Below are positions 27,261 through 57,759 of a stretch of 64,000 nucleotides of DNA, one piece after another. The translations under genes were made by a program, and so were the position numbers. Source of the stretch: Cladocopium goreaui (taxonomy: Eukaryota; Sar; Dinophyceae; Suessiales; Symbiodiniaceae); assembly GCA_947184155.2 (NCBI GenBank), contig CAMXCT020006468.1, positions 2,501-66,500 of the forward strand, written 5' to 3'. The notes under the pieces were generated by a model. The model was given only the letters and a program-made list of their open reading frames with translations, ran no database searches and was not told where the DNA came from. The stretch's first letter is position 1; each line of letters starts with the position of its first letter.

Positions 27261-27511
27261 GCATTGCCCGCCAGTTAGAAGTATTGCCCGTCAGTTGGAA
27301 GTATTGCCCGTCAGTTAGAAGTATTGCCCGTCAGTTAGAAGTATTGCCCGTTAGTTAGAAGTATTGCCCGTTAGTTAGAAGTATTGCGCGTATGTTGGAA
27401 GTATTGCCCGTCAGTTAGAAGCATTGCACGTCACTTAGAAGTATTGCCCGTTAGTTAGAAGTATTGCCCGTTAGTTAAAGTATTGCACGTCAGTTGGAAG
27501 TATTGCACGAA
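27261..27511. repeat. 20-bp tandem repeat GTATTGCCCGTCAGTTAGAA, about 12 units
   Basis: Twelve units of a 20-bp motif lie in register, with changes mainly at positions 8-16 (CCCGTTAG, GCGCGTATG, CACGTCAC variants) and one 19-bp unit. The array ends about 55 bp before the retroelement LTR. Confidence 0.95.
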
Positions 27512-27566: not shown

Positions 27567-27767
27567 TGAAGAGGGGCCCTAGCGTCTACTTCAAGATCAG
27601 CTAAGGCGTCTTCCCCAATGACAGCACTTGTTTTACTCAGCCTGTTGCCGGTCCGTGCTTGTCTATACAGGGTTACTCTATATACCTCTTGAGCCTTGAA
27701 GGGCGCATATAAATGTGCTCAATACTCATGCATGTACCTATGTAGGTATTAGGTCGAAACAAAAACA
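27567..27767 (-). repeat. 3' LTR of the copia-type element
   Basis: It matches 43,892-44,091 almost base for base from TGAAGAGGGGCCC to GGTATTAGGTCGAAAC. Differences are confined to three spots (around CACTTGTTTTACTC, GTCCGTGC and CTATACAGG). In element orientation it starts TGTTTTTG and ends CTTCA. Confidence 0.95.
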
Positions 27768-27784
27768 CAGGCACAAATTCAAAA
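27768..27784 (-). repeat. 17-bp direct repeat, copy next to the 3' LTR
   Basis: CAGGCACAAATTCAAAA lies directly against the 3' LTR. An identical copy is at 34,903-34,919, just after the RNase H stop codon. The two bracket the extra module. It is not purine-rich, so no ordinary polypurine tract is seen here. Confidence 0.9.
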
Positions 27785-28423: not shown

Positions 28424-30316
28424 ACACTCACTCATAGCCAAAAGCTTGATCTCCATGGTCTGGACGAAGAAGATGAGGATCCACCCCACTCTGTGTTGCC
28501 CTGATACGTCGATGCTTGATCTTCATATGCCTTTCTCTTTCTCTCCTTCTGTCTTTCCTTTCTTGTATCAGCATACTGCTTCTTCTTGTAGGCCTGTTTG
28601 TAATGATGTCGTTCATTCCATGACATATCAGAAGGATCAAGATGGATAAGAATTGGATTATGAGCATCGCGATCATTTGGGGCAACCATGAAGATGTTGT
28701 GATCACCATGTAAGCAAGTTTCATTTACCTTGAAGTAAAATTCACCCACATAGTTCATGTGATCTTCATCCTCAAAGTCTTCTGGGTGTTCCTCACACAT
28801 CAAACGTGAATGACCCCACTCAACAACTGTTAACATACAACAATCACCTTTACCATTTGTCTTGTTCATGAGCTCGTCGGTGTATGTTGCTGTTGTAATG
28901 CCATCCAAGTGCGTTGCAAGAAAATCCAAGTCACGATAACTGCAAGAAATGAAATGCTTGACCCTGATTGGAGGGCAAGATGAATCAAAATACTTGCGCA
29001 TGGCTTGTGTTGCAACACCTACCATTCTGTTGATCCAGAATTGGATAAGGCTGTGTTGGTATGTAGGGACACCTGGAGATTTTGGTGTGCTGTAATAGCA
29101 TGCCTTGTTTCCATCACCTGCGATGAAGTCAACTTGATATCTGGCACACTCAAAAGCCATAACAGCTAAGCACTCACCAACAATCCCAGCAGAGTCTGAT
29201 GCATACTTCTGTCCGACGTGATAAACGCACACACGTGTCATTCTCATCCTAGCTCTTGTCAAGTCAACAATCTCATCTGTATCTCGATCCTTTGTCTTCC
29301 CCAAGATACTTCAAAGATTGCCCATGAGACTTGTCGAACTCGTGTGTCGTTGTCATCTGTGTGATATCCAGCAATTTGCTTGATATAGCCATCCTTTCCA
29401 AGGCGAGCTGCCACCATCAAGTCATGATAGTCATTGAAGCAATTTTAAAGTCAACCTCGTCGAGTCTTTCTCTGTGAGGATACAATGAACCAGCCTCGCA
29501 ATTCATGAAAAGATGTCCTCCAAAGTTCTTGATGACATTGATGAAGTAATTGTTGAACTGTGATTTGTTTTCATCAAATTTTTCATGATCCTCATCGATG
29601 GTGTAGTCAATGTGTGGAATGAATTGTTGAAATCTTTCTGGAACCGGGCATTTTTCAAATCTGTTTCTGCACCAGTTTCCCAAATTCCAAAACATTGCTG
29701 TTATCTGTGGAGAGGATCTGTATGGAAATTCGGCATCCTTGTAAGTTGGGTCTGATAGGCCTCCACCTAAATACCTGTAAGCCAAGCTATGCAAGATCAT
29801 ACAGTACGGCAAGACCTTGTGGTCCTCAACGTAATCTTGGAGTACCCTTGTGAGATTTCCAAAATCGTCATCAATCCTCTTTTCTGCTTCTTTTGAGGAT
29901 CTTTCTGCTTTGTCTTGATGAAGAGGATGCATCCTAGGATCACTACAACCATATTCAATGCGCTGATTGAGTTCTTGTAATTCTAGTTGTGGATCTTGAT
30001 CCTTGTGTCTGGCAATGTACTCAACCATCAACTGGTCATCTGTAAGATGGTACCAATAATCTTGATGTGGAGACATGGTCTTTCTGTACTTGACATGCCA
30101 AAACATGTGTCGATGCTTCGAAGACGCTGGATAACCTTTGTTGTAAAATCCTGCCCATTCACCATGGTAATCATCTGAAAAACAATCCTTCAATTTTCGA
30201 AAAACTGAATCATCTTCGTTTCCAGTGATATCTTGACCATAGTAAAGTCGAATTGCAGGTTTCACTTCAGGAGCTGTCTCATCATCTTGAATGTCTGTTT
30301 TCTTCTCCCCTGATTC

Positions 30317-30332
30317 CTCCTTTTCTGAGGAG
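30317..30332 (-). repeat. Coding hairpin family, copy 6
   Basis: Element strand: stem CTCCT, loop CAGAAA, stem AGGAG, followed by GAA; codes RSSEKEE. Confidence 0.75.
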
Positions 30333-30352
30333 CGTTCAGGTGGAGCTGATTC

Positions 30353-30368
30353 CTCTTTCTCTGAAGAG
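30353..30368 (-). repeat. Coding hairpin family, copy 5
   Basis: Stem CTCTT, loop CAGAGA, stem AAGAG, then GAA; codes GSSEKEE. Confidence 0.75.
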
Positions 30369-30629
30369 CCTTCAGCTGGGACATGTGGCTCCTGTGTGTC
30401 TTTTTCTTCTTCTTTTTCTTCGACAGCAATCTCCTCTTCTTCATCCTCTTCTTTCTCTTGTCGTTCTTCTGGTTTGACAAAACTGTCCTTGATCTTTTGT
30501 TGAACATTCTGATTGCACATACTGATCCATTTCAATGTACACTCAACCAATTTGTCATCATCAGTTTCCAAAACGATATGCTTGTCCTCAATGTTCAAAC
30601 TTTCAATAGTATGTTTTGGTTTCCCCATG

Positions 30630-31211
30630 TAATGCTTATAACGTCAAATTCACAATCTGGGTTCCTGGGCGGTATTTCTGGGTTCCTGGGCACTAATTCT
30701 ATGTTCTTTCATGGTTCTGGAACTCAAGCGCTGTGGAAATAGAATTTGACTTTTGCAATGTCCAAGTTCGGGTTCCTTTGACCATAAGGGGTTCGGCTAT
30801 CAGATTCTTAACCCAGAACCGCCCAGGATTGCCCAGGACTTCCCAGGACTACCCAGACACTGCCCAGGTACTACCCAGGAATCCTGGAACAGTTATGCTA
30901 AGCATTGCAGAATTATAATGCTTGTCGTAAGTGTCACCGAAACGGTTTGGCGTCTATAATGCTTGGCGCAACTGTCAGGTCGATTCCTGGGTAGTACCTG
31001 GGTACTAACTTCTGTCAGGATACTTCAACACTACCCACGAATCATCTCCAAGTTGTGACATGCATTAGACCGCGCTAGTGAGCTATCCCAAGCACCAGAT
31101 GTCCTAGTTTTTGAGCGGTCAAGCCCCCACTTTCTTGATTTCCAGCCCCTGACCGTGCCGGCCTCGGTGCCGCGCACCGTGCCCCGGTTTTTTCCCACGT
31201 TATAAGCATTA
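30630..31211. mobile_element. 582-bp fold-back element inside the module
   Basis: TAATGCTTATAACGT at the left is mirrored by ACGTTATAAGCATTA at the right. Internal inverted repeats are also present: CCCAGGTACTACCCAGGAAT (30,863-30,882) against its complement (30,983-31,002), and GGGTTCCTGGGC words against GCCCAGGA words. Related TATAATGCTTG words occur inside. It splits a reading frame: the flanking frames are in the same phase and 582 is a multiple of three. No transposase. The last ~58 codons of the upstream frame are derived from it. Confidence 0.75.
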
Positions 31212-31702
31212 CGTGGGATAATCAAAGTATGTTTGTACTCAGGATCACCTGCGCCTGGTCTTTGAAGATCTGGAAGAGGAGTGTCTGGATCATCGTCCAC
31301 CAAATCAGGATCCTCTGCTCCAAAGAAATTTTCTGCGCCAAGGTGTTCATTCTCCCTGAGAACTTGGTCAATATCCAGTTTGAACTCATGATACTTGTCG
31401 TAGGAGATCTCATAACCCATCATAGGTGCATACTGCTCCATAAATGTTGAAAAGGAAGCATCTGATAATGCCGACATCATCAACCATAATGCGAAGAAGC
31501 TTATGTCACCACGTTCAAGGCGCTGACCTCCTTCAAGATCATCTTCTGTGAGGATTGATTGGCCTGCAAGTGTAATATCCTGTAGGATCCTCCTGTGCTC
31601 TGGTTTGAGTTGCCTGACTAAAAACAGTCCCTGTCGATCTTCCAGATTTCTTCGAGGATTTGCATCTGGTAATACCTCATCTTCTTGTTGTGGTTGTGTT
31701 TC

Positions 31703-31718
31703 CTCTCTTTCTTGAGAG
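31703..31718 (-). repeat. Coding hairpin family, copy 4
   Basis: Stem CTCTC, loop AAGAAA, stem GAGAG, then GAA; codes CSQEREE. Confidence 0.75.
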
Positions 31719-31732
31719 CATACACCTTCTTC

Positions 31733-31748
31733 CTCTCTTTCTTGAGAG
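31733..31748 (-). repeat. Coding hairpin family, copy 3
   Basis: Stem CTCTC, loop AAGAAA, stem GAGAG, then GAA; codes GSQEREE. Confidence 0.75.
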
Positions 31749-33067
31749 CCTGATGCCTTTTCCTCTTTCCTGACAAAAACTTGTAGTCTTGGCAAAAACT
31801 CCAAATCATCTTCAGCATCATCATCATCGTGATCTTCCATGTCCACATTCTGTTGCTCTGATTCTGGGATGTGAGCAATCTTGTCCTTTCCAGCTACCCA
31901 GATGTAGCCATCGAGCTTTGTAGATGTGTGGAAGTCACCTGAACCGCATTCCCTGACCTTTGTCCTTGCTCTTGCAGATTGATGGAATGCTTCATGCTGA
32001 AAGAATTGATTGTAGGCATGTTCAACAAAGAATCTGTAGGATTGAGCTGTCAATTCCTTTCTGCTATCCACAAATTGTCGAAGCTTGTTCAGAGCAAAAA
32101 CTGTGAAATGGCTGAAGCTAGCAGGTGCTTCATCTTCATACAGATCGATTGCCATGATCATCATCTTTGTGGAAAACGAGAAATGCCGTTCAGGTTCAGG
32201 GATGACTGTTTTCTTGTTCATGGGAACTGTAATTCCTTGGATAGTCATGTCATACCCATGTGTGTTCAACTCCAGTGCATCCAAAATGTTACCATCACGG
32301 TCCTTCTTTCTCTTGCAAAAATCTCCCCAGAGTTTGTTGTTCTCTCTAATGAACTTGTCAAGATGCTTGGTGTAAAAGACAAAGACTGCTTCTGAGAGAT
32401 ACTCCATGTCCTTCTGTATTGCTAAGTCTCTCTCGTATAGCAAGAACTTCTCTCTCCATTCGTCTCTGTTGATACTGTGTCTGTCTTCCCAACCTGTTGG
32501 GGCAACTTGACCTCGCATCCAGTCTGTCCAATATTGTCGACAAGAGTTCATGTAACCTTCCATGGCGTCAATGTCTCTTTCTCGATGGAAGTGTGCCAAC
32601 ATGCGTCCAATCTCCCAAGCTCTTGTGAAGAGTAAGCATAGATGTCCTGTCCATGGTAACTTCTCCCAATCTGAGCGAGTGATCGATTGTCTACGAAGTG
32701 CTATCTTTTGTGAAGAGAGTAGTAGGTTCCATTCACGCAGAACTATCACTTTTTCTCCTGAGGAGTTCTTGATGAGTTCACCGCTCTCTTCTCTTGCACA
32801 GACAATTCCTGCCTCATACAGGACCCAGGGATTCGATGCAGAAATTGAACTTTTGGTAGCCTGTTCTACCACAGGGTCTACGATATCATCTGGTGGATCT
32901 TCTGCTTCCCAGAGATTGACAGCCTCTTCACCCATTGGGTCGTCATGGACGTCCACTGATGGCTCCTCTTGTTGATTGTCTTGAGCATCTTGTTGAGGAT
33001 CATCATGTTGTGGTGATTCTGGACTTCCTGATGAGGAGCGTTGTTGCTCCCATACATCTTGAGGTTC

Positions 33068-33083
33068 CTCTCTTTCTGGAGAG
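33068..33083 (-). repeat. Coding hairpin family, copy 2
   Basis: Stem CTCTC, loop CAGAAA, stem GAGAG, then GAA; codes RSPEREE. Confidence 0.75.
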
Positions 33084-33145
33084 CGTCCTCTTCTTGATGG
33101 TTGTTCATATGGATTTTCCATGGTTTCATCAGCCTGCGCAGATAC

Positions 33146-33161
33146 CTCTCTTTCTTGAGAG
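33146..33161 (-). repeat. Coding hairpin family, copy 1
   Basis: Stem CTCTC, loop AAGAAA, stem GAGAG, then GTA; codes GSQEREV. Confidence 0.75.
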
Positions 33162-33193
33162 CCTTCTGCTGCAGCACCATAGATTGATTCCAC

Positions 33194-34112
33194 AACGGGT
33201 CAAAATCATTCTCGTTGCATAGTGGTGTACCAAAAACCAATCTTCCATAGTTTTGTGGAACCTGCTGACCCATGAACTCCCATGCTGTGATTCTGACTTC
33301 CTCAGGAATGTCTTGTCCAGGAATGAATGTTGGACCTTTCTCCTTCATGACATGGTTCCATGTTGTGTTGGTGTGCCATGAACCACCTGTAACCGATGGA
33401 GGTAGAGAGTGACCACGTCCTTGATGAACAACGTTGCATGCAATGGTAGGGAGTTGTTCCTTGACGTGGAGGTGCTGGAAAGGAATGTCACCATGAAATA
33501 AAATGACACCATTCTTTGTCAGATAGAGTTGGTTGTCCACAATAAAACTTGGATCCAACACGAGGTACACTGGTCGCCTATAGTTTCTTGGAGGCTTCGT
33601 GCCCTCTGCCATCCTTATATAGCCCTGACCATTGTCATTGTGGTACATGAAGTGAACTGCATCCCTTCTGCCTTTTCCACTTCCTTTCACAAAGGTCTTC
33701 TGGCCTGATTGTTGAATGAAATCTAAGTTCATGAAATCAGTGAATCAGTGACATGAAAAATTCAGCCCAAACTCATAGCCTCATCATATGTCAGTTGGTG
33801 ATATGCCACAGTAGGATCGACAACTTGGTTGCTATGTCCTTGAGAAGCACCAAGACGAACGTCGAATGGATACTCTGCAGCTGGGCTATATGGGTACCAC
33901 TTCCATCTCATGGAGATCTCGATAAAGAATCGTTTCTTTGGATTACACAGTAACATAGCAGCAAAATCTGCTCCAGACATGTGATACTCCTTTGGATTGT
34001 GATCTTGCATCCGATCAAACAATATGGAAATGTTCATAGCTCCACTGGTAGTGAACAAAGATTTGTCCCTGCAATGTCTCAACACATTTGCTATCTTCTT
34101 GCTACATGACAT
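33194..34112 (-). pseudogene. Tpt1/KptA-like RNA 2'-phosphotransferase domain, broken
   Basis: Tpt1/KptA enzymes transfer the internal 2'-phosphate of spliced RNA to NAD+. The first frame (33,762-34,112, 116 aa) opens with SKKIANVLRH, matching the family's SKxLSxxLRH start with its catalytic Arg-His pair, and carries RLGASQGHS, close to RAxQGHS (two extra residues after Arg). After an in-frame TGA comes IFHVTD (family LYHGT). The second frame (from 33,732) has DAVHFMYH (family HVHLS), RRPVYLVLD and KNGVILFHGD (family SxNGVILTxG). An 8-bp tandem duplication at 33,735-33,750 (AATCAGTG twice) shifts the frame; with one copy the phases agree. Family members are usually 180-280 aa, and this domain spans about 220. 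So the fold is recognisable and the key motifs are present, but this copy cannot make an intact enzyme by normal decoding. Confidence 0.82.
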
Positions 34113-34127
34113 GTAGTAACTTTTCCT

Positions 34128-34858
34128 TCATGAGCTAGTCATGTCCACGTTGAAATCATTGCATCGTCCATCAAACCAGTCTTCTTCTGCCTGAGTGGTA
34201 AAGCCACAGAGATACTTCAGAAAACTTGAAATCCACTTCAAAGATTCATCAAATTCTCCATGACTAGTTCCCCAGTGCAAAATCCAAGCTATGGAGTCCA
34301 TGAACATCTCATATCTGTCAATTGCTCTCATGTTGTGTGGTCCCATCAATGTATGTAAATCGCGTTCTCTTCTCTTCCTCACATTCTCGTGAACATGAAA
34401 CCAATCTGTTTTTGGCAGGAGGGGGTGGGGAGGAGGTAATGGGAAGTGGTGGGGGGGGGGGAGGGAAGCGTAAGAAGATATAGAGGGAGTGGGGAGTTGG
34501 ATCAATGAGAAGAGGACCAACTGGTACGGTAAGCATAGTAGGAAAGGAGGAAAAAGGGGGAGGGTAAGAGCTGCGGGCGGGGCCGGGAGAGGGGCGGGCA
34601 AAGGGGAGCCTGAAACCAATCTGTTTGGCGCCTGTAATCATAGCAAAATGATAAATGGTCCTCGTTGGGTAGTGATGATGGTGTTCGAAATCTGTCAGCT
34701 GGGATTTCCTCTGATCTTCTCAGAGCATATCCATCAGCTGAATGTGTTCCAGTAGCATCAATTCCAGAACTGTGATATTCTTGGCCTCGATTGCTAGTTT
34801 GTGCCTGATCACTAGATGCTGCGGCTGAGGTCCTGTTCCACCGGCTAGAGCTCGACAT
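34128..34858 (-). pseudogene. N-terminal segment of the module protein, interrupted by a 215-bp insertion
   Basis: From ATG at 34,858 (MSSSSRWNRTSAAASS) the frame runs to a TDWF codon block, is interrupted by the pyrimidine-rich insertion, and resumes after a second TDWF block as HVHENVRKRRERDLHTLMG, ending at TGA at 34,128-34,130. The frame is also open upstream to the RNase H stop. Ser/Thr-rich first 80 residues are followed by a Trp-rich globular part (SIAWILHWGTSHGEFDES, EEDWFDGRCNDF). Not recognised. The KptA frame follows in the same phase only five codons after the TGA, so both may once have been one protein. Confidence 0.6.
34412..34626. mobile_element. 215-bp pyrimidine-rich insertion with 16-bp direct repeats
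   Basis: TGAAACCAATCTGTTT occurs at 34,396-34,411 and 34,611-34,626. The ~199 bp between is unrelated to the surrounding coding sequence. On the coding strand it is C/T-rich (runs of CCCTCC, CTTTTTCC) and ends GCCAAAAACAG, like an intron 3' end. There are no terminal inverted repeats. Removing 215 bp (2 mod 3) brings the two flanking frames into phase. No GT-AG pair falls at matching positions in the repeat, so a standard intron is not demonstrated. Confidence 0.75.
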
Positions 34859-34902: not shown

Positions 34903-34919
34903 CAGGCACAAATTCAAAA
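34903..34919 (-). repeat. 17-bp direct repeat, copy after RNase H
   Basis: Identical to 27,768-27,784. It lies 5 bp past the RNase H stop codon and marks the 5' border of the module. Confidence 0.9.
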
Positions 34920-34924
34920 AATAG

Positions 34925-36406
34925 TCAAGAATCCCTCAAGGTGTCACCTAACAGAAATACATCATGTCTGAAATCAACATGACTGCAAACTGTTGGCAAC
35001 CATGACCTGAGGTAAGCCTTGTGTTCCAGTAATGATCTGAATGGTGGATGAGCATCAACTTCTTTAAGAACACCTTGTCGAACAGCATCAATAAGATTCT
35101 GAGGATTGGCAGACTTCTTGGTCAAACAATCGGCTAAACACCATTGAGTTCTGATATGTGACAAGTCAGCAATAGAACCTGAACATGCTTCCTTCCTAAG
35201 CATCTGAATCATATGAATGGTCTCTTGTTGTTCAGGAACATGAGTAGCGCTGGCAGTAGTCACAAGATTGTTTGCATCAGTCCTCATATGAATCTCACTT
35301 GAAAGTCCAGTGATGTCCTTGATCAGTCCCCTCAACATTTGACATGTACCATAACACTTCATGAGTGCATACAACTCTGCAACAGTTGTGCTCAACGTGG
35401 TACGTTTGATTTTGGTTGATTCAAAGAAAATGAGAGAACCTCTGGTGTTTTTGCTCTTTCCCTTTCTCGGTTCAGCCATGAAAATAACCATCGCGCGCTG
35501 TGAGGATTTGTCGCTGTTGTTCCTAAACGCTGCATCGGGCATTGCAACTAATCTAGGATCACCTTGAAGTGGCCAGAACATAAGTTCCATCGGGTCACCT
35601 ACAATTTGCCTGCAAAGTTTGTTCAGCGTTTTGCAATCACCTATGGTGGGGGAAGCAGCAGCAGAGGCACAACGTGAAAACTGATAACACGACTGAAATT
35701 GAGTTCTTGATTGTAACCAGTTGATACTACCTAAGAGTGATCTATAGGCAGTGTGGAGATCCTTGTCACATGTGTCTTCATCCTTCAAACCTTTTGGTAT
35801 GACAACCTCAGTAAGTTCACTGACACAAAGTGATTGTTCAACAGTGATGTGTGATTTCTTCTTGGTCTTCTCATCAATGATCCATTTCACACGTTGACCA
35901 GTGAACATCAAGTCATTCACATCTTCATGACCAATCTTGAATTGTGACTTGACAACTTTCTTGAACTTCTCCAGAAACTCTGGAGTTCCAGTAATGAACA
36001 AGTCGTCAACATGCAAACAACACATGCCAATAGGTTTTCTTCCCTTGGCATTACTGCCATTCACAGGGTCCATGAAGTGTTCCAAGAGTTGTTCAACAAT
36101 CTCAGGTGTCAACTGTGGTGTCGTGGCAAGATAAGTACGCTCTGAAGGTAAGAAGACTGAAACAAGTACTTCAGCTTCTTCTTCCAAACTTGTGGAAACA
36201 TTGTCCTTGTTCATGTCATGATTCATCTCAAGCAACCACCAAACTCCTTTCCTCTTCACAATAGAAGTTCTCAAGTGAAACTTCTTTCGATCATAATGTG
36301 AATCAGGAGTTCTCAAAGCTTTTGCACGATAAGCAACTTGAGCATGACCATTTTCAAAAGGATACCAACCAGACTTGTGTTCAACAGATTCCAAAAACTT
36401 CAACAA
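34925..36406 (-). CDS. C-terminal reverse transcriptase plus RNase H of pol
   Basis: This 493-aa frame continues the pol RT one phase back; a single missing T near 36,404 (ACTTTG for ACTTG) would explain the shift, and no clear slippery heptamer is seen. Residues ~1-130 hold the RT fingers/palm remainder with CCLHVDDLFITG, the VDD catalytic motif of copia RT. Residues ~290-450 hold RNase H with the acidic series PDAAF, AELYAL, TDANNL and LADCLTKK. The frame has no ATG start of its own. It ends TCT-TGA-CTA, and the same frame stays open into the module. The product would copy the element RNA and remove the RNA strand. Confidence 0.85.
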   Translation of the reverse strand: MLKFLESVEHKSGWYPFENGHAQVAYRAKALRTPDSHYDRKKFHLRTSIVKRKGVWWLLEMNHDMNKDNVSTSLEEEAEVLVSVFLPSERTYLATTPQLTPEIVEQLLEHFMDPVNGSNAKGRKPIGMCCLHVDDLFITGTPEFLEKFKKVVKSQFKIGHEDVNDLMFTGQRVKWIIDEKTKKKSHITVEQSLCVSELTEVVIPKGLKDEDTCDKDLHTAYRSLLGSINWLQSRTQFQSCYQFSRCASAAASPTIGDCKTLNKLCRQIVGDPMELMFWPLQGDPRLVAMPDAAFRNNSDKSSQRAMVIFMAEPRKGKSKNTRGSLIFFESTKIKRTTLSTTVAELYALMKCYGTCQMLRGLIKDITGLSSEIHMRTDANNLVTTASATHVPEQQETIHMIQMLRKEACSGSIADLSHIRTQWCLADCLTKKSANPQNLIDAVRQGVLKEVDAHPPFRSLLEHKAYLRSWLPTVCSHVDFRHDVFLLGDTLRDS

Positions 36407-39400
36407 GTTTCATCAACAACAGGAGTCCAAGCACAATCTTCAACCTTCTTCTCCTTGAACTCTTTCCTCTGTTTCCATGTTTGGGTTTGTTGATAGCAAG
36501 CTGAAAACAATCTTTCTTCAACCAAAAGAGACTTATGAACTTCCTCAGCAATGTCGGAGGATTCATCACGCGTTTCCTCACTGTCTTGTGAGCTTACGTA
36601 GTATGTCACAGGTGCTGGTTCTGTTGCCTCAGAGTCAGCAAAGCTAACCTGTTTTGGCTCCTTAAAAGCACCATCATAGCATACATATGTACACCTGTCA
36701 GCTCTTGTTGGTTGAATACCAAGCGAAATCAGAAATTTGTCAAGGCGGTTCCACCATCTACGTGGTGCATCCGCAAGTCCATAGACGGAACGAGTGCACA
36801 AACCAACCAAGTAAGGAGGCAATCCAATGTCAGTAGGCAACTGAACATGGATAACGCGGCGGTCTAAGTCGTATGTTTCCCCCTGAAGGAAGGCAGTTTT
36901 CAAGTCTAAATGGAGTAAATCCCAGTACATCGAGGCTGCATGCTGAGATGCCACACGAAAACCATATCTGGTAGCAGTAGGACTGTCAGTCTGTAAGTCA
37001 TACTTTTGAGCATCTTGAAAGCCTCTACATACCCATCTAGCCTTGAACTTCTTGAACTGTCCATCCTTATCAACCTTGATGGTAAGCACCCATCTGCCAG
37101 TGACATAGTTATCAATCTTATGACGTCTCTTGTCTCTGAAAGTCATGGCAGTGAAATCCAGAAAACTTCTGAATTCTTCAAGCTTGGCTTGTTTGATCTC
37201 CTTAGCATACTTTCTCAAGACTTCTTGAGTGATAACTGATTCTGCCTTTGGCTGCTTCTTTCCATTCTTGGCAAGATACTGTTCAAACTGGTTGAATCCA
37301 GTAACATCGTATGAACCAAACTCAGGTGCAGCTTGGACCTTTGGTCCTAAAGGAACGAAAACAGTACCATCAACATTGACAAAATGAGAGTGGTCTGATG
37401 TATAAGGTTCAGTGTCCACATCTTCTTCCTGAAGCTGAGCAATGTCATCCTCAGTCAAAACAGGAGTGTCGTCTGTTTCATATGGTTCTGTTTCATCATC
37501 ATCATGTTGCGATGATACCAATTCTGGTGTTCCTTGTGAAGACTGCTGTTGCGCTGGCTGCGCAAAGTCACCTGGCGTAAACGATGTTGGTGTAGTAGTA
37601 GGCAATGGAATTGTATTATCATGTGAACTTGAGGCAGTAGGATCATGTGAAGGCCCTTCATCTTCATAAGGTTTCTGAGTAGGAACTGAAATTGGCTGAA
37701 CATGACCTGGTAATTGAACCTTTGGCCTCTTGATAATCACCTTTGCCTTTGCCTTTGGTAAAGCATCAGTAGAATCAGTTGAGATCTGTCTCTGTTTCCT
37801 TTGAACTCTGATAGGCTCTGACGTCGGATCAGGTCCTGGTGGAGAATCGTCATCTTGTCCAGGATCAGCAATCTCTTCGATTGGAATGTCAGGATTGGAA
37901 AACGGAGTTGATGGTGAACTTGGTTGATGAGTTTCCCCCGAGTCCTGTATTCCTGGCATATCCAAATCATCATCAGGTGGTGGTCCATAATCATCTGGAA
38001 TGATGTACTCTTGATCATCATCATCACCTGGATCAGGTCCAGTGTTGTAATCAGGTTGATTGTCATCATCCAGAGGATCATCTGGTTCATCACCACTCAA
38101 CATCTCATCATCATTTTGTGGAACATCACCATGCTGATCTGGATGAATGGGATCGTCACCATTTGGGGGTGTGCTACTTGAACTAGGAGGATCTTCAACT
38201 CTCCTTTTGATAGCACCAGTCGTTTCTCGTGAAAAGACGATCATACTCCATTCATGGATTTTGAACTGTTCATGATGTGGATACAACTGTGACACAAACA
38301 TGAAGTAAACATGATCATAGTCACCAGGTTTCCAAATGAGTAAGACAGCATCTTCAGGATGTTGAAACAAAGGATTCACTCTTCCATAAGTTCCTCTGAA
38401 CACACTGCAATCTTCAAAGTACATTTGAGGCAATGTCTTCCTTCTGACATCTTGAAGTCCAGGAATCAGTTCAATGATTCTGGGGTCAGTTGATTCTCTG
38501 ACACTAGCCTCTGTACTCCTTGGCAACTGATCAATCTTTCTCAATGTTTGAACAAGTAACTGAGTGGTAAACCTCTGTGGAAGGATGTGCTTCAATGGCA
38601 CTGGAATCGAGGTCTCAACATGATGCAAGTCTTGCAACAAACACGAGCACTCAGATTCACGGTCCAAAAACATTGACGTGCCACACAATGCTCCATCAGC
38701 AAAATGTTCCAACAGATCTTCAAACAAGAAACATTGTCTCATGTTCTGCAAGGGTACAAGTTGTGTGAACTGCGCAATGAATGAACACAAGTGAGATGGT
38801 AAGACCTTCCATTGTGGATCATTCCAAAGCTTCCCTTCTCTATTGAAGGCATGCTGTGGTTCCAACATGTCAAAGTCTTCATCATGATTGTAATACACAC
38901 GCAAGTTCTTGATTGAAGGATCACAACGACAGTAATTTGTCATGTCAAGGTTGAAACAACCAATGTGATACTTGATTCTGTCCTTCTGAAATTTCTTCCA
39001 AGCCAAAAACTGAGCAAATCCTGAATCAGGTGGTGCAATCACCAAGAAACCTTTTCCTCGGTCAGCTTGCCATTTCATCACATCAAGGCAAAACTTGAAT
39101 ACCGAGTATTTCCAGGAATTTGGTGAAGGATTTGTGATCAACACGTATTCAGGATCAAGCTTCTCAAGTTGTTTCCAAACTTGGTTTTGTTTCTTTTTGC
39201 TGTTGAAACTCCAACCATGCTTGTGGTCAATGGGTTCACCAACCTTCATGTTCAATCGTGCCATGTGCCAACTAAGACCAGTGTTGCTACTGAAAAGTTC
39301 CACAACATCACACTTGCCAGTCTGACAAAACCAGTGAGCTTGTTCACCTAAGTATGCTTCAGCATATTCAGCGATATCTGGTTCATAGTCATCTTCATCT

Positions 39401-42400
39401 TCAACTGCAAGTGGAACAGGTTCTGATGTGTCAAGTCCAGGAACAGCAACATCATGCCATTCATCATGGTCACGTCTCACCTTCGATTGATTAACACGCA
39501 TGACTGCGTTGTCAACATGAACATTGACCATAGCACCTTCTTGAGAGATAACAGTACCTCTGATCCATCTTTCCTTCTTCCATGCCTTTGAAGCAATAGC
39601 ATTAGCATTGACAGGGGAACTCCAAACGAAAACCTTGTCACCTGGTTTGTAAGGTCCATCTGATGGCATTGTTCGTTTGGCCATGTCATGTCTGAGGTCA
39701 GCAGCTTGTCTGGCTTCCTGATGTGCCCTCAGTGCTAACCTTTGCAACTCGAGTTGTGTTTTGTCTTCAGGTAAAGGATCAACACTAAGTTGAGCAGGAT
39801 CAGAAGTCTCAATATCCAGAAGATCTGGTGGTCTTCTACCAGTGGCAATTTCCAAAGGAGAATAACCACTAACAGTGAGTTGAGTGTTTCTGGCCCAAAC
39901 AGTACGCTTCACAGCTTCTCTGATGGTGATTCCTTTGAACCTATCATCTTCAAGGTTCTTGGACATGATTTGCCATTGTCGTTTGAAAAGTCTGACAGCT
40001 GATTCAGCTCTGTTAGGCCATGGGGTTCTTGAACCACAGGGACATTCCTTGATACCATGAGTTCGGTAATAAGTCAGAAAGTCTTCTTGAAAGAAAGCTT
40101 CATCACCTACGATGGCTTTAGGCATACAATTGTGTTCATCACTCCACAACCTTAGAGCCTGAATGGTCTCCTTGTTGTTCAGTGAGTTTTGTGCCGTAGC
40201 CCAAAGTAAGTTGGTTGCACCATCAAGAACAAGCAACACCATGTACTTGTTCTTCCTCAACTGAATTTCAGCATGATCAACAAAGATAACATCTCCAAAG
40301 TTGGTGGATCGTATGCCTGAAATTCTGGCTCGCGGCGGTGGTGCAATGGAAGTACTACACACACGACACTTGTTGTACATCTCCTCATACTTCTGATAAA
40401 CAGAGTCAGGAAGTCCTAACATGGAAGTCCTTCGTCTGAATTGAGTAGGAGACATGTGATAGTGTTTGATATGAAGCTTGTAAAGTTCCACACTATCCTC
40501 CAGTTTCCTGAGCATCTTTCTGTATGCTGGTGTCATGGCTTGCACTTCACTACCAGGCAGTGGAATCGAAACTCGCCTAGGCTCAAGAGCATCACTACCT
40601 AGTTTCTCAACTTGACTTTCTGAATCTTGCTTACCACGGTTGCGCGCAGGTGCAGAATGTTTTGGTTCAATGACTTGAGGTTCATCTGAATCAATCTTGT
40701 CCAAACCTAACTCCCTAGCTACCTTGTCAAGCTCATCTTCTTCATCAAGCTTGGGATAGGAGACAACAACCTTCTTTCTTGATGAACCTGATTGAGAGTC
40801 ATCGACAACCTGAGGTTTCTGCTTACCTACGTGTCTTTTGGCTGCAGGTGGACCTACCTCAATCTTTTTCGAGCCTGGTCCATTTGAAATCGGTTTGCCT
40901 TCCTCCTTCTTTAAGGAGCTTGGCTTCTTCTTCTGTACACCTGATGGCACTGAAGAGGCTGACTCAGGGTGAAAAAGATCATCAATGTTTCCACGAAAGG
41001 GCTTTGCACGATCAATGTCACTTCTGACAATGTCATCTGGGATCACGTAGTCCTCCTTGATCTTGTAGATGGTCTTGCCCTTCCAGAACTCTTCACTCTG
41101 TTCAGAAAACCTCTTCTTCTCAGTGCGCCAGTTGTCCTTGTGAAGAACCTTCTTCTTGCTCTTCTGGAATTCCATGTGGGTTTCTCTCTCATCAAGAAGT
41201 TGATCTTTTGGAATTGGAGTTTTCTCTGATCGAGTCATCTCATGTAAGTTCATTCTCTTGTCCTTGTGGTGCCTGATGAGTTCACGACGTAGTGGATCAA
41301 CCTGCCAGTAGTCACCAGTCACCAAAGCTTCTCCTTCATGATCATCTTGTTTGACAGCAATCTGGCTGTACTCAAAGTGATCGTGTTGTGAATAGAAACT
41401 TTTGACTTGTGGAGTCTTGAAATGAACTTGGCTCATGTACCATGCTACATCTTGTAGGTCGAGAATGAGATGAGTACTAATGGCTGTCCTCAAAACCATT
41501 TTTCTCATGCCAATACGTGCACAGGACAAATAAGCCTTCTCTGGAGTAAGTTCAAATTGAAATCCAAGGTTTCTCATCTGTGGAAGTGACATCAACAATG
41601 GGACATCACCTTCTTCGACAATGTCGAATTCTGTAAACTGAGTGTTCCATCCATGATCATACATGAATATCACGAGCTTCTCAGTACATTTTGATTGTTG
41701 TGAGTTTGCAAAGAAAAATCTTGAACTTGTTGGCTGAATTTCATACCAGAGTCCACTGTTGGGATGTGAGTCAACATATCTGCAAAATGCTTCAACTGCT
41801 CGTCGAGAGCCCATAGCTCTTGTGCATCCAAGATCCAGAATACACACAGTTGGTGGTGCAGAATTCTCTGTGTGAAAGGCTAGCCCATTCTCACATGCCA
41901 GATCAGTTTGTACAGTATGAAATGAAAAAGCACTCTGCTGTGATGGTTCCTCTATCTCTGTAGAGCATCCATGTGAAAACAATGTTGTGCCTTTTGCCAA
42001 TGGCTTCCATGAAGCCTCACCTTCTTGAAGACCAACTTGCCTGGGCACTACAGCTGGACGTTGTTGTACACCTTGTCGTAGTGCACCAACTTCTCCAACC
42101 AGAACAGGGAATCTCTTCATCTCTCTCCTGTTTTGATGTGCTCTTGCATCACGTTGGTTCTGTCCTCCACGACGAGTACGTCGTTGTTCATCTTGTGCTG
42201 CATACGTGGATGTCAAAACATCAACACGTGCTGGCTCTGTCTCTGCAACATCAACACGTGCTGGTTCAGTTGTTCCAAATGAAAAGAAACCATGACCAGA
42301 ACTTGAAGCTGCAGAAGAATAATGAGCTTGTTGAGTTGGTTGATTCTGTATGGCAGGAGCTGATGTGGTCTGAGGTTGAACATAGTTCGACTTGCCTTTT

Positions 42401-42627
42401 CCATCTCCTGGCTTTCCTCCTTTTCCATCATCATCCTTGCCTTTCTTGCCTTTCTTTCCTTTTCCTTTTCCTTTCTTCTGGAAGTATCCATACTCATCCA
42501 TGTAGTACAGATCATCATAGGCCCAATAGCCTTCATTCCAGGTTTGATCATCGGCCCAATAGCCGTCATAGTTTTCATTCCATTCATCTTCTTGCCAATC
42601 TTCTTCATAATCTTCTTCACTCACCAT
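36400..42627 (-). CDS. Ty1/copia-type Pol polyprotein: protease, integrase, MTase-like segment, N-terminal RT
   Basis: This 2,075-aa frame starts at an ATG overlapping the gag stop (ATGGTGA). Order: Trp/Tyr/Asp-rich then GK-rich basic start (residues 1-90); aspartic protease at ~255-360 with LDLGCT, where most relatives have D-S/T-G, and a DVPLLMSLPQMRNLG flap region; integrase at ~700-1,000 with HIKHYH and CRVC zinc residues and a DDE triad in FVDHAE, VGDEAFF and PNRAES; a segment at ~1,100-1,300 resembling a C5-methyltransferase fold without its catalytic Pro-Cys; an acidic Pro/Asp linker; and RT at ~1,830-2,075 with KARWVCRGFQD, HLDLKTAFLQGE and SVYGLADAPRRWW. The frame lacks any stop over 6.2 kb. 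It ends TGTTGA, and the RT continues in the next frame. Confidence 0.93.
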   Translation of the reverse strand: MVSEEDYEEDWQEDEWNENYDGYWADDQTWNEGYWAYDDLYYMDEYGYFQKKGKGKGKKGKKGKDDDGKGGKPGDGKGKSNYVQPQTTSAPAIQNQPTQQAHYSSAASSSGHGFFSFGTTEPARVDVAETEPARVDVLTSTYAAQDEQRRTRRGGQNQRDARAHQNRREMKRFPVLVGEVGALRQGVQQRPAVVPRQVGLQEGEASWKPLAKGTTLFSHGCSTEIEEPSQQSAFSFHTVQTDLACENGLAFHTENSAPPTVCILDLGCTRAMGSRRAVEAFCRYVDSHPNSGLWYEIQPTSSRFFFANSQQSKCTEKLVIFMYDHGWNTQFTEFDIVEEGDVPLLMSLPQMRNLGFQFELTPEKAYLSCARIGMRKMVLRTAISTHLILDLQDVAWYMSQVHFKTPQVKSFYSQHDHFEYSQIAVKQDDHEGEALVTGDYWQVDPLRRELIRHHKDKRMNLHEMTRSEKTPIPKDQLLDERETHMEFQKSKKKVLHKDNWRTEKKRFSEQSEEFWKGKTIYKIKEDYVIPDDIVRSDIDRAKPFRGNIDDLFHPESASSVPSGVQKKKPSSLKKEEGKPISNGPGSKKIEVGPPAAKRHVGKQKPQVVDDSQSGSSRKKVVVSYPKLDEEDELDKVARELGLDKIDSDEPQVIEPKHSAPARNRGKQDSESQVEKLGSDALEPRRVSIPLPGSEVQAMTPAYRKMLRKLEDSVELYKLHIKHYHMSPTQFRRRTSMLGLPDSVYQKYEEMYNKCRVCSTSIAPPPRARISGIRSTNFGDVIFVDHAEIQLRKNKYMVLLVLDGATNLLWATAQNSLNNKETIQALRLWSDEHNCMPKAIVGDEAFFQEDFLTYYRTHGIKECPCGSRTPWPNRAESAVRLFKRQWQIMSKNLEDDRFKGITIREAVKRTVWARNTQLTVSGYSPLEIATGRRPPDLLDIETSDPAQLSVDPLPEDKTQLELQRLALRAHQEARQAADLRHDMAKRTMPSDGPYKPGDKVFVWSSPVNANAIASKAWKKERWIRGTVISQEGAMVNVHVDNAVMRVNQSKVRRDHDEWHDVAVPGLDTSEPVPLAVEDEDDYEPDIAEYAEAYLGEQAHWFCQTGKCDVVELFSSNTGLSWHMARLNMKVGEPIDHKHGWSFNSKKKQNQVWKQLEKLDPEYVLITNPSPNSWKYSVFKFCLDVMKWQADRGKGFLVIAPPDSGFAQFLAWKKFQKDRIKYHIGCFNLDMTNYCRCDPSIKNLRVYYNHDEDFDMLEPQHAFNREGKLWNDPQWKVLPSHLCSFIAQFTQLVPLQNMRQCFLFEDLLEHFADGALCGTSMFLDRESECSCLLQDLHHVETSIPVPLKHILPQRFTTQLLVQTLRKIDQLPRSTEASVRESTDPRIIELIPGLQDVRRKTLPQMYFEDCSVFRGTYGRVNPLFQHPEDAVLLIWKPGDYDHVYFMFVSQLYPHHEQFKIHEWSMIVFSRETTGAIKRRVEDPPSSSSTPPNGDDPIHPDQHGDVPQNDDEMLSGDEPDDPLDDDNQPDYNTGPDPGDDDDQEYIIPDDYGPPPDDDLDMPGIQDSGETHQPSSPSTPFSNPDIPIEEIADPGQDDDSPPGPDPTSEPIRVQRKQRQISTDSTDALPKAKAKVIIKRPKVQLPGHVQPISVPTQKPYEDEGPSHDPTASSSHDNTIPLPTTTPTSFTPGDFAQPAQQQSSQGTPELVSSQHDDDETEPYETDDTPVLTEDDIAQLQEEDVDTEPYTSDHSHFVNVDGTVFVPLGPKVQAAPEFGSYDVTGFNQFEQYLAKNGKKQPKAESVITQEVLRKYAKEIKQAKLEEFRSFLDFTAMTFRDKRRHKIDNYVTGRWVLTIKVDKDGQFKKFKARWVCRGFQDAQKYDLQTDSPTATRYGFRVASQHAASMYWDLLHLDLKTAFLQGETYDLDRRVIHVQLPTDIGLPPYLVGLCTRSVYGLADAPRRWWNRLDKFLISLGIQPTRADRCTYVCYDGAFKEPKQVSFADSEATEPAPVTYYVSSQDSEETRDESSDIAEEVHKSLLVEERLFSACYQQTQTWKQRKEFKEKKVEDCAWTPVVDETC
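40903..40918 (-). repeat. Coding hairpin family, copy 7 (in pol)
   Basis: Stem CTCCT (extendable by T-A), loop TAAAGA, stem AGGAG, then GAA; codes SSLKKEE. Confidence 0.7.
41950..41965 (-). repeat. Coding hairpin family, copy 8 (in pol)
   Basis: Stem CTCTA, loop CAGAGA, stem TAGAG, then GAA; codes CSTEIEE. Confidence 0.7.
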
Positions 42628-43724
42628 GTGAGCACGGCCTTTCTTCTTCCTTTTCCTCGGCCTTTTCCTTTTCTTGATCTGAAGAACCTTCGTCCTCCTC
42701 TGCCTTTTCCTTTTCCTTTTCTCTTTCCTTTACCTTTGCCTCGTCTGATGTATTTGCCTTGGAACCTTCTCTGATACCATGTGAAGTTGGCGTCATCATA
42801 AACCCAGAAAACATCTTCTAAAGCATCCAGGAATCCTTCTGCGCCGTCTTCTTCATCTTCGGCCCAATAGCCGTCGGTTCCTTCTAATTCACCTTCATCC
42901 AGTACGAGGAAAGATCTTCTCTGTGCCATGCCAGAGGGTTGCATCAATGGATTGTCAACTGCTGTTTTGGTAGTGCAAAACATTTCCAAAAACAGGTCAC
43001 GTAGTTCTTGAATGTTGTATCGATCGAGGGTTCGTCCACGATGTGTCATGATACTTGTGAGTGTGTTTCTCTGATCTTGACTCAGGTCAGCTAGACTTAC
43101 AAAAATCAATGCTAGCAAATTTTCACCCAGTGGGAATGCTTGTCGCTGTGCTTCTCTACGATTTTCCTGAAATAGTCTGAATGCCGCTAGTGCCAGTTCA
43201 TCTGTCCAAGGAACAGCTACATGGGGTGTTCCTGAGGCTGCTGCTACTTCAGCTCTCTCTTGTTGATCTCGTTCATGTTCTTGACGTCGTTGTTGAACAA
43301 ACAGGATTGCTTCAGGACTAGTCACTGTTACTTCTGGAAGTAAATCCATCCAAGACTCAATAAGTCTATTGCCAGTGAGTTGAAATCTAGTCATCCACTT
43401 CTGAAGATCCATTGTTCCTCTGTTGAACTTCATGAACTGCATGAAACGGTATAAGAACACGTTTTGGGCACCTTTGATGAAATGAGGTCGTAGAAATCTT
43501 TTGAAATAAGCCACTCCTTCATAGGGATCCCTGAGTAATTCTCTATCCAATAGCCTCTTGTATTGTTGAGCATCTCCTTCCAGTCTATTGCGCAATGCTG
43601 GACCACGTTTCTCTGGTTCTAACTCCGTAATGTCACACCAGTCATCAATTGCATCCTCAAAAGCAAAGAAGCTGGTTCGCCCATCATAGGCTGGAGCAAC
43701 CTTTGTGGTCATCTGTTGCGTCAT
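42621..43724 (-). CDS. Gag-like capsid protein
   Basis: A 367-aa frame starting MTQQMTTKVAPAYDGRTSFF, the first frame after the primer binding site. It has the helical copia-type Gag pattern: YDGRTSFFAFEDAIDDWCD, LRNRLEGDAQQYKRLL, then a long Arg/Gln-rich helix region. An acidic Trp/Tyr patch (GYWAEDEEDG) precedes a basic GK/GR tail that could bind RNA. No CCHC knuckle is present. It would form the particle around the element RNA. Its stop codon overlaps the pol ATG, with pol one phase back, so pol may be expressed by reinitiation or frameshift. Confidence 0.85.
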   Translation of the reverse strand: MTQQMTTKVAPAYDGRTSFFAFEDAIDDWCDITELEPEKRGPALRNRLEGDAQQYKRLLDRELLRDPYEGVAYFKRFLRPHFIKGAQNVFLYRFMQFMKFNRGTMDLQKWMTRFQLTGNRLIESWMDLLPEVTVTSPEAILFVQQRRQEHERDQQERAEVAAASGTPHVAVPWTDELALAAFRLFQENRREAQRQAFPLGENLLALIFVSLADLSQDQRNTLTSIMTHRGRTLDRYNIQELRDLFLEMFCTTKTAVDNPLMQPSGMAQRRSFLVLDEGELEGTDGYWAEDEEDGAEGFLDALEDVFWVYDDANFTWYQRRFQGKYIRRGKGKGKRKGKGKGRGGRRFFRSRKGKGRGKGRRKAVLTW

Positions 43725-43878
43725 ATGAATCTGTGTTGCTGGGGTGCTCTTCTCATTGCATAAGAGTCATATTGGTTCCATTCATTTGCATCGACAATGT
43801 CGAAGTCATCATCATCATAGCCATGGCTTGCCATTTCTTGGGCTCTACCTGGAGCTCACCCTCAATGAGGGATCACTG
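43725..43878 (-). other. 5' leader of the element
   Basis: About 150 bp lie between the primer binding site and the gag ATG. A short palindrome CCCTCAATGAGGG (43,858-43,870) lies 8 bp from the primer binding site and could form a hairpin. No promoter is recognisable. Confidence 0.5.
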
Positions 43879-43889
43879 CTCCGCTACCA
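43879..43889 (-). other. Primer binding site, initiator-Met tRNA type
   Basis: Two bases inside the 5' LTR the element strand reads TGGTAGCGGAG, matching the complement of the 3' end of eukaryotic initiator methionine tRNA (TGGTAGCAGAG) at 10 of 11 positions. Copia elements commonly use this tRNA. Confidence 0.75.
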
Positions 43890-43891
43890 CT

Positions 43892-44091
43892 TGAAGAGGG
43901 GCCCTAGCGTCTACTTCAAGATCAGCTAAGGCGTCTTCCCCAATGACAGCACTCTTTTACTCTCAGCCTGTTGCCGGTCAGTGCTTGTCTACAGGGTTAC
44001 TCTATATACCTCTTGAGCCTTGAAGGGCGCATATAAATGTGCTCAATACTCATGCATGTACCTATGTAGGTATTAGGTCGAAACAAAAACA
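43892..44091 (-). repeat. 5' LTR of the copia-type element
   Basis: Element strand starts TGTTTTTG and ends CTTCA, the TG...CA form. It is about 97% identical to the 3' LTR. It should contain promoter and polyadenylation signals, but none is recognisable. Confidence 0.95.
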
Positions 44092-46709: not shown

Positions 46710-48535
46710 TACCTGGTTATACCTGGTTACGCCTCTGTGATTGGTCCTGCTGTTCCCTTCTGTTCTGCACGAATCGGCACGAATCGGCACTGCCTCGTCT
46801 CGCCGAAGCTATGGAGGACTGCGGGGATGCTGGTGTTGAATGCATTTTTGAAGCCCTGAGTCACCATTGAACATATTCTGGTTGGTGATTTGGAACCATG
46901 GAATTTTATGACTTTCCACATATTGGGAAGAATACTCCCAACTGACGAAGTCATATTTTTCAGGGGGGTTGAAACCATCAATTAGTATTTGAACATGTTT
47001 TTGAACATGTCATATTCTGTAAAGTGCCGCTTCATCGAATTCCGAGATACAATAAGTGTTTTCACCAAAGAACATGGGAGTATCACCAAACAATCATGAG
47101 ATGTATATATATATATGATATATGTGCATATATACATATATAGACATGTATAATAGGAGATAGCCAAGAAAATCCTGGGATGTACTCTCTAGTACTGCAA
47201 CCTTGCAATGAACAAACTCTATCAAAGCTTTTCGTTGAGTGCCTGGTCAATGGTTATACAACCTCCGCGGAAAAAGCACATACTAACCTTGTTTTGTGTA
47301 TAGATATGTCTGGGTGACGTATGAGATGCATCAAGACTACATAATGTATGTATATATATAATGTTTGGACATGCATCCAAATGAGAGAGTTGTTGATGAT
47401 CACGGCTGGTTCGTAGATAAATTTGAGCATACCCAAGTAGGAAAACTGCTTATGATCCAGTTCCTATCCAAGATTCACATCCATTAGACATGATTGGTAG
47501 CACAGGGACCCTCAGAAGCACATCATTTTCAGGTGTGTGAATTACAATTCAGCGGCCACACGCACACACAGTTATACACACATATTTACATAAGTTTCAT
47601 GATATTTTCAACACGTGATATAGCAAAATACCATGAATACATCAATAGCCAAGGAAATGACTAAACAATACACATAAAACATATCCATATCATTCCATAT
47701 CCCCAGAACATCCCAGCGTTTTTTTTGTCAAACTTTTTCTGGCTTCGACTCCAGCAGCCAGCTGTCTTCTCTTGGGCTTGGATGGTGGCACGGTCGATGA
47801 AGGTGCGCTGCTTCAGCAGGGGATTTTCATCAAAACTTTGGGATTTCGTGAGTGAAAAGCACCGCGAAATGGTGCATGGAGATACCAGAATTCTGATACA
47901 ACTGATGTATCTCGAAAGCAGACACGTGTCGACAGGGCTAGGAGATTGGAGATTTGCCAACAGAAATCAGAGATCTGGATGTGTTTTTTCGCAACAGGGA
48001 CTGTCTCCGTACGAGGGGGATTTCATCCCGGGATTCCAACAGATTTCACCACTGATGTGCGATCACCACAAGGATAGCTTCGGTGAGGTGAAATGGACGT
48101 TTCACCAAAAGGATCATGGTATAGGTCACATAGGTCACAGATATGGAGCATGAATGCCTCATGGTCGTCCAAACCTAGAATCACTTTTCAATACTGGGAA
48201 ACCATCACCTTCAAACCCTCTTCAATCGTTTGTTTTTGGATGACATATCTCAAAGACATATCCAACCTATATCCTGAAATACTGGCAACGTTTTGTTCTG
48301 AAATCATCCGGGCAACTGAACACTTGGTGAATGTCCTCAGCGCCGTTTCTATCTAATTTCGAAGCACGGCTTCATGGTGTGAATTTGTTGCATTTGTTGG
48401 AAGCATAACTGGAAGATTGAAGATTGCTTGTTCTTCACCCGTTTGTAGTTAGACTCATGTGGCATTGGTTGGGTCCACAACACCTGTTTACCAAGAAGGC
48501 GACCAACCACCGCCTTCCGGTGTCGAAGCCGCGCC
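46710..48535. other. Upstream flank of BTB gene 1
   Basis: Shares blocks with the other array units: CATGAGATG with (TA)n near 47,095 (like 52,405), ATGAATACATCAATAGCCAA near 47,631 (like 53,066 and 56,937), and a GC-rich island at 47,745-47,820 equivalent to islands at 53,200 and 57,050. The island may be an exon or leader segment. The empty MITE site is at 47,897-47,898. No independent gene is supported. Confidence 0.6.
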
Positions 48536-57482: not shown

Positions 57483-57759
57483 CACATATTCAGAACGTGT
57501 CAGAATGTATACTTGCAACGTTTTGTTCTGAAATCATCTGGGTTGCAACTGAAAGCTTGGTGAATGTGGTCAACGTAGCTGTTTCAAGCTTTGGATGTTC
57601 AACCCACTCTGCAGCGGCTACCAGCATGATCACTATTTTGGTAGTGCGCTAATACTAAGCTTCACTACACTGTTGCCAGCTATAGCCTGTGGGCCTGTGG
57701 GATTGATCAACGGCAGAATCGGCATTGTACACGATTTCCGGAGCGGCGTGTTGAGTGCC

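Follow-up and report, generated by a model that had tools for sequence, protein, structure and literature searches.

A copia-type LTR retrotransposon family in which the pol region is followed by a Tpt1/KptA domain is present in the genome of the dinoflagellate Cladocopium goreaui. The window, that is, the whole 64-kb stretch of DNA that was analysed, contains one such element, as the sequence-only reading had claimed, and the finding is larger than first noted. The Tpt1 domain travels with the copia element as its part, and at least three other kinds of retroelement in this genome carry it as well: a putative tyrosine-recombinase (DIRS-like) kind, a second, probable copia lineage, and an RVT_1-type kind. 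The motif series cited in the sequence-only reading was recovered on the minus strand between 33430 and 34112. The interpretation given there is supported; the roles proposed for the domain stay conjectural.

The window element, whose family we call type A, is 16.5 kb long and lies on the minus strand from 44091 to 27567. It is bounded by a 200-bp LTR pair, a direct repeat of 200 to 201 bp of the form TG...CA (5' LTR, 43892..44091; 3' LTR, 27567..27767) with 196 of 203 columns identical by blastn. Along the minus strand, the 5' LTR is followed by a PBS-like sequence, a gag-like frame, pol, a UGA stop, a second long coding region (ORF2) in the same frame, and the 3' LTR. The PBS-like sequence TGGTAGCGGAGC (43878..43889), just inside the 5' LTR, was identical in all five copies read and is presumably complementary to a tRNA 3' end. 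The gag-like frame of 381 amino acids (42621..43766) is an open frame named by its position alone and gave no match in a Pfam scan. The first pol frame (36400..42729) carries a protease-like ILDLG motif and integrase-like CxxC and D..D..E motifs, read by eye, followed by RVT_2 (E 7.8e-15; 55.6 bits against a Pfam cut-off of 31.6); the type A integrase upstream of RVT_2 is thus assigned by motifs only, with no Pfam match. The second pol frame (34925..36409) holds the end of the reverse transcriptase (RT) and an RNase H-like part, where RVT_2 reached only E 0.2, and both the HVDD of the RT (35993-36016) and the RNase H-like motifs were identified by eye. Between the integrase and RT motifs of the first frame, a minus-strand stretch, DVVELFSSNTGLSW ... 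ITNPSPNSW, resembles a degenerate methyltransferase module and had no Pfam match.

ORF2 begins with an N-terminal extension, followed by the Tpt1 domain, and continues to near the 3' LTR. Both lobes of Tpt1 are present, the winged-helix RNA lobe and the ADP-ribosyltransferase-type (ART) NAD lobe. The RNA lobe (33762..34127; PF01885 alone E 9.7e-4, 19.7 bits) includes LRH (34074-34082), the Arg of PKKRF (33930-33932) and QGHS (33831-33842), and the NAD lobe (33448..33744) includes the Arg of RRDAVHF (33664-33666) and NGVILF (33496-33513), all on the minus strand. The rest of ORF2 covers 28432..33744 on the same strand in the frames 32878-33744, 31031-33199, 29417-30643 and 28432-29310. Several lesions disrupt ORF2 in the window: a stop codon, a short tandem duplication that shifts the frame between the RNA and NAD lobes, further frame breaks and two inserts. 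One insert, of low complexity with a 16-bp flanking duplication (34412..34626, minus strand), is damage of the window copy; the other, of 612 bp with inverted ends of about 30 bp (30615..31226), is perhaps a small DNA transposon. In the relative P0006, ORF2 is unbroken and forms a single open frame of 1,784 amino acids. The C-terminal part of ORF2 had no Pfam, PDB-sequence or significant fold match. Look-alike motifs seen by eye hint at an endonuclease/exonuclease/phosphatase-like (EEP) C terminus, which these searches did not bear out; the structure model was poor (pLDDT 47.8). Elsewhere in the window, a 20-bp tandem array (27263-27506) adjoins the 3' LTR, and frames with BTB and BACK domains (48449-50239, 54426-55682 and 57553-59460) are probably gene copies.

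The junction between pol and ORF2 is a UGA-CUA stop (34922..34927, minus strand; TGACTA in copies) with ORF2 in frame behind it. UGA-CUA is a leaky stop context. It was found at the pol end in the window and in 19 of 20 other copies, the remaining copy having CGA, and in 2 of those 19 a longer T run behind the stop alters the frame; since the copies are near identical, this conservation is weak evidence. In the relatives P0004 and P0021, the RNase H-like end runs on into Tpt1 without a stop. Additionally, a 17-nt sequence immediately after the stop (34903..34919) recurs at 27768..27784, adjoining the 3' LTR, both on the minus strand. With up to 3 mismatches allowed, the window held no match beyond these two exact ones, and shuffled sequences gave an average of 0.37 matches at the same tolerance, with two or more in 5 of 100. 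The repeat may be a scar left when ORF2 was acquired at what had been the 3' end of the element; alternatively, it may be a second priming site. A search for a form lacking Tpt1 and ORF2, in which the pol end would abut the 3' LTR, gave 0 matches at up to 3 mismatches.

The genome searched comprised 1.166 Gb in 6,202 contigs, with the window in contig C5851. Of 1,496 first-look candidates from a search with PF01885, 150 were scored and all of these passed the cut-off; 145 of them were stop-free, and 14 lay in open frames of 4,020 to 4,039 amino acids. Three loci among the best matches were not element copies. One of these (L001) is a host-like gene, and the other two (L002 in C5523 and L003 in C1, 7.4 Mb) are on bacterial-looking contigs in the assembly, each with its own KptA. 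When the N-terminal 376 residues of P0006, which hold Tpt1, were used as the query, 109 of 544 candidates were scored; these copies were 97 to 99% identical, all 109 were stop-free over this part of ORF2, and many had frames near 1,894 amino acids. Thus, several independent elements with intact domains, the support that the sequence-only reading had predicted, were found. A separate search of the genome with RVT_2 scored 150 of 7,362 candidates, independently of the Tpt1 matches. In a search for relatives in viral contigs, nine stretches matched a pattern, none of them confirmed.

The location of the domain inside LTR-bounded elements was likewise borne out, with an LTR pair in four of five type A copies tested (the window, C428, C164 and C281). 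In the fifth, C2520, the 5' LTR alone was detected, with no match for a 3' LTR at the place predicted from window distances. For the three copies with pairs outside the window, an LTR was present in all six stretches predicted in this way, and the pairs were 95.1, 97.6 and 100% identical. The 5-bp duplications of these three complete pairs were GCCCT, CCCCC and CCCCC, the last two within C runs, and at the window LTR flanks four of five bases agree. Among six LTR-paired copies (four of type A and two of type E, the second, probable copia lineage), five had identical 5-bp flanks, the window being the exception; because two of these five duplications fall within C runs and a third within a GAA repeat, only GCCCT and the type E duplication GGAAG are telling. 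In 34 of the 47 type A copies checked (the Tpt1 matches on contigs up to C1602, out of 109), an exact 3' LTR border followed 5,903 to 5,959 bp after the point where the Tpt1 stretch begins; in one it lay at 7,493 bp, and 12 had no exact border among the 100 borders listed. With 2 mismatches at most, 364 places in the genome matched the border pattern and 0 matched its reversed control. The LTR flanks of five type A insertions (the window, L033, L036, L038 and L040) adjoin runs of G and C, and in three of the five a run of G borders one of C, hinting at a target preference. At another locus (L015, C5927:56561 and 71715), two Tpt1 matches of a type A subfamily lie on the same strand 15.2 kb apart and are perhaps a tandem pair sharing an LTR.

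Membership in the Tpt1/KptA family was confirmed by the PF01885 match, with scores against the cut-off of 26 bits of 36.7 for P0006, 31.1 for P0004, 50.3 for P0021, 51.2 for P0034, 70 for P0041 and 53.4 for P0033. The broken domain of the window itself reached 24.8 bits when its pieces were joined, and the joined frames gave 0 matches to PDB by sequence. Overall, 65 of 74 proteins matched the Tpt1 domain profile. According to the available text of PMC6333775, the essential tetrad of the Clostridium thermocellum enzyme is Arg18, His19, Arg68 and Arg121, where Arg18 and Arg68 engage RNA-junction phosphates and the His and Thr of an HGT motif contact NAD+. We mapped these positions by alignment to PDB rows and use that numbering. 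The full tetrad was found in 37 of 38 type A proteins that cover all four positions (P0028 has Leu for His) and in 12 of 13 proteins of the putatively DIRS-like type B (P0059 has Lys for the last Arg). Taken singly, over covered rows of types A and B, the equivalents of Arg18 (39/39 and 14/14), Arg68 (42/42 and 14/14), His101 (44/44 and 15/15) and Arg121 (47/47 and 13/14) were almost invariant, and the His that contacts NAD+ was present in every covered row. Type A reads HVT where the family has HGT, type B has Ser in place of the Thr in 11 of 15 rows, and Gly replaces the tetrad His in all five type D/E rows aligned. The host-like L001 and both bacterial rows had the complete active-site set. 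Loss of the third catalytic Arg was considered and rejected on comparison with solved chains: the Arg of IRAxQGHS had been mistaken for it, and the true tetrad Arg, in NDKxR, is kept.

Type labels were assigned from 18 stretches and five short loci, a subset of the 150 PF01885 matches, with Pfam frame scans of L009 and L014-L021. In type B (L009-L014), an RT part and an RNase H-like part, both identified by eye, lie in one frame with Tpt1, with PF01885 at E 9.8e-27 (L009) and 8.9e-25 (L014). Phage_integrase was weak and under the cut-off, at E 7.3e-4 in L014 and 1.1e-3 in P0061, a type B relative of 3,271 amino acids that also has PF01885. Type B relatives in other data sets (e.g., Skav235328 and s1779_g9.t1) had PF01885 in 15 of 16 matches; the symbB and Skav names of relatives are presumably Symbiodiniaceae gene names. 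Type E (L017 and L021-L026) has RVT_2 and then Tpt1 in single frames near 4,026 amino acids, with no stop between pol and Tpt1. In the two loci scanned, RVT_2 was weak and under the cut-off (E 0.0077 in L017 and 0.0068 in L021). Type E LTR pairs at two copies were 100% and 98.9% identical, with 5-bp duplications AGAAG (in the GAA repeat) and GGAAG. Behind its RNase H, a stretch, MLIEFCCSSDSKLC ... ASLPCVGGSPW, resembles the methyltransferase-like stretch of the window. Type D (L019 and L020) is a related, probable copia kind in which both copies have broken frames, and RVT_2 in L020 was under the cut-off at E 3.6e-4. Type C (L016 and L018) has RVT_1 (E 2.3e-4 in L016, under the cut-off) and Tpt1, and a PLD-like domain (PF13091) lies downstream of Tpt1 in both loci.

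In a tree of 34 Tpt1 domain rows, from which the truncated P0031 was dropped and in which P0028 was trimmed, the domains of A, B, C and D/E each formed one clade, and A and D/E joined at 88/82; the program issued a long-branch warning. The p-AU values were 0.048 for a single clade of all element domains, 0.020 for A with B, and 0.053 for B with D/E. A single capture is therefore rejected as a certainty, one clade of all element domains being borderline excluded.

Sequence comparison among copies points to constraint on the domain. For type E Tpt1, the pooled pN/pS was 0.045 (7 copies and 21 pairs, with 94 nonsynonymous and 604 synonymous differences), and the same DNA read in the other two frames gave 4.7 and 5.3, the pattern expected under constraint on the coding frame only. 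The value for type E RT-RNase H was 0.052. Type E Tpt1 is therefore under strong constraint, with copies taken from score-ordered lists and pairs that are not independent. Type A gave 0.14 to 0.25 (six pairs from four copies), and a distant type A subfamily against one copy gave 0.29. One usable pair each gave 0.17 for type B, where other pairs were saturated, and 0.11 for type D; the one type C pair had 4 differences. Tpt1 is probably useful to the retroelements carrying it, because it looks intact in more than 100 copies and is also found in other jumping-gene kinds. That it is a passenger, namely a retrocopy of host Tpt1 captured by accident and serving no purpose, as the broken window copy might suggest, is very improbable in view of the 145 stop-free matches among the 150 scored, the strong in-frame constraint and the several element kinds involved.

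As a tentative reading, for which we would give slightly less than an even chance, we propose that the element Tpt1 is active, is partly fused to Pol, and clears 2'-phosphates from template or primer RNA for reverse transcription. The domain is predicted to be an active NAD+-dependent RNA 2'-phosphotransferase; in the family chemistry described in the available text of PMC6333775, the RNA 2'-phosphate attacks NAD+ and departs as ADP-ribose cyclic phosphate. It would be made partly as a Pol fusion through read-through of UGA-CUA, and 2'-phosphates would arise when cut RNA is resealed or would sit at RNA ends. Given that the domain follows RNase H within a shared polypeptide or transcript, its likeliest target would be RNA of the replication complex, and freeing the element template or primer RNA of 2'-phosphates would allow reverse transcription to proceed, on the assumption that a 2'-phosphate halts the RT of the element. 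As precedent, the available text of PMC9503650 describes a small number of RNA viruses whose polyproteins contain KptA domains and argues in general terms that viral KptA handles RNA ends from metal-independent RNases. The yeast exonuclease Xrn1 is halted by a 2'-phosphate (PMC6456296, available text), so the phosphate could be protective, which is a point against a removal role. That several kinds of element in a single genome carry Tpt1 points to a common pressure acting on RNA in these cells. It is possible, if doubtful, that at least two unrelated dinoflagellate retroelement classes captured Tpt1 separately because reverse transcription stalls at 2'-phosphates that their RNA acquires through a host pathway of RNA cutting and resealing or through a host defence.

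Other activities of the domain were weighed against phosphate removal. Tpt1 might instead ADP-ribosylate 5'-phosphate ends of element RNA or cDNA, capping them against exonucleases or sensors. A KptA structure whose title includes 5'-p-ADPR-DNA, listed by the fold search, suggests that family members can do so, and the His that contacts NAD+ is kept; however, the Arg18 and Arg68 equivalents that engage phosphates, present in all covered A and B rows, point to the standard substrate, and we regard this alternative as unlikely. A role in counter-defence, in which Tpt1 would help to mend tRNAs or mRNAs of the host after cleavage by a host RNase during element activity, resembles one proposed for phage and viral KptA (available text of PMC9503650) and would suit the PLD-like domain behind Tpt1 in type C. 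However, Pfam listed neither an RNA ligase nor a 2H domain among the scanned element frames, and a Pol-linked enzyme would be scarce for such a bulk task; this role, too, seems improbable. We give still less credence to retention of Tpt1 for RNA binding by its winged-helix lobe, with catalysis unimportant: the tetrad His is missing from the five type D/E rows, but residues of the NAD lobe (the His101 and Arg121 equivalents) are about as conserved as those of the RNA lobe.

Ty1-copia LTR retrotransposons have an LTR, a 5-bp target duplication and an integrase before RVT_2. Type A shares these features and adds, behind RNase H, a second coding region that begins with Tpt1 and reaches up to 1,784 amino acids. 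Cellular Tpt1/KptA enzymes of C. thermocellum, yeast and human (PMC6333775, available text) have the same fold, both lobes, the tetrad and the HGT His; however, they are stand-alone, whereas the element domain has insertions and, in the copia types, HVT or HRT for HGT. The dinoflagellate retrotransposons SymbioLINE-Dnmt and SymbioDIRS-Dnmt3 are similar in that a captured nucleic-acid enzyme occurs in many copies and more than one element class, with its key residues kept, but that enzyme is a DNA methyltransferase and the domain is absent from LTR copia elements; Tpt1 does not appear in the available main text (PMC5890265). The KptA domains of RNA-virus polyproteins and jumbo phages likewise sit in the replication polyprotein of a genetic parasite, but these are viruses of other kinds, and the available main text contains neither "retrotranspos" nor "reverse transcript" (PMC9503650). 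No retrotransposon with Tpt1/KptA was found among the matches listed in literature outside subscription papers, and the available text of papers that pair the terms held only gene tables and separate mentions. In one paper, the name Tpt1 denotes a telomere protein of Tetrahymena.

Uptake of host enzymes by retrotransposons is known, and in the literature found, an RNA-repair enzyme tied to a reverse transcriptase was absent. The role of Tpt1 is unclear in organisms without fungal-type tRNA splicing (PMC6333775, available text), and retroelements are a natural setting in which to seek its substrate. If Tpt1 was indeed captured separately against 2'-phosphates, the polymerases of these elements would be accompanied by an RNA repair enzyme fuelled by NAD+, and this would be the first repair function of its kind in retrotransposons.
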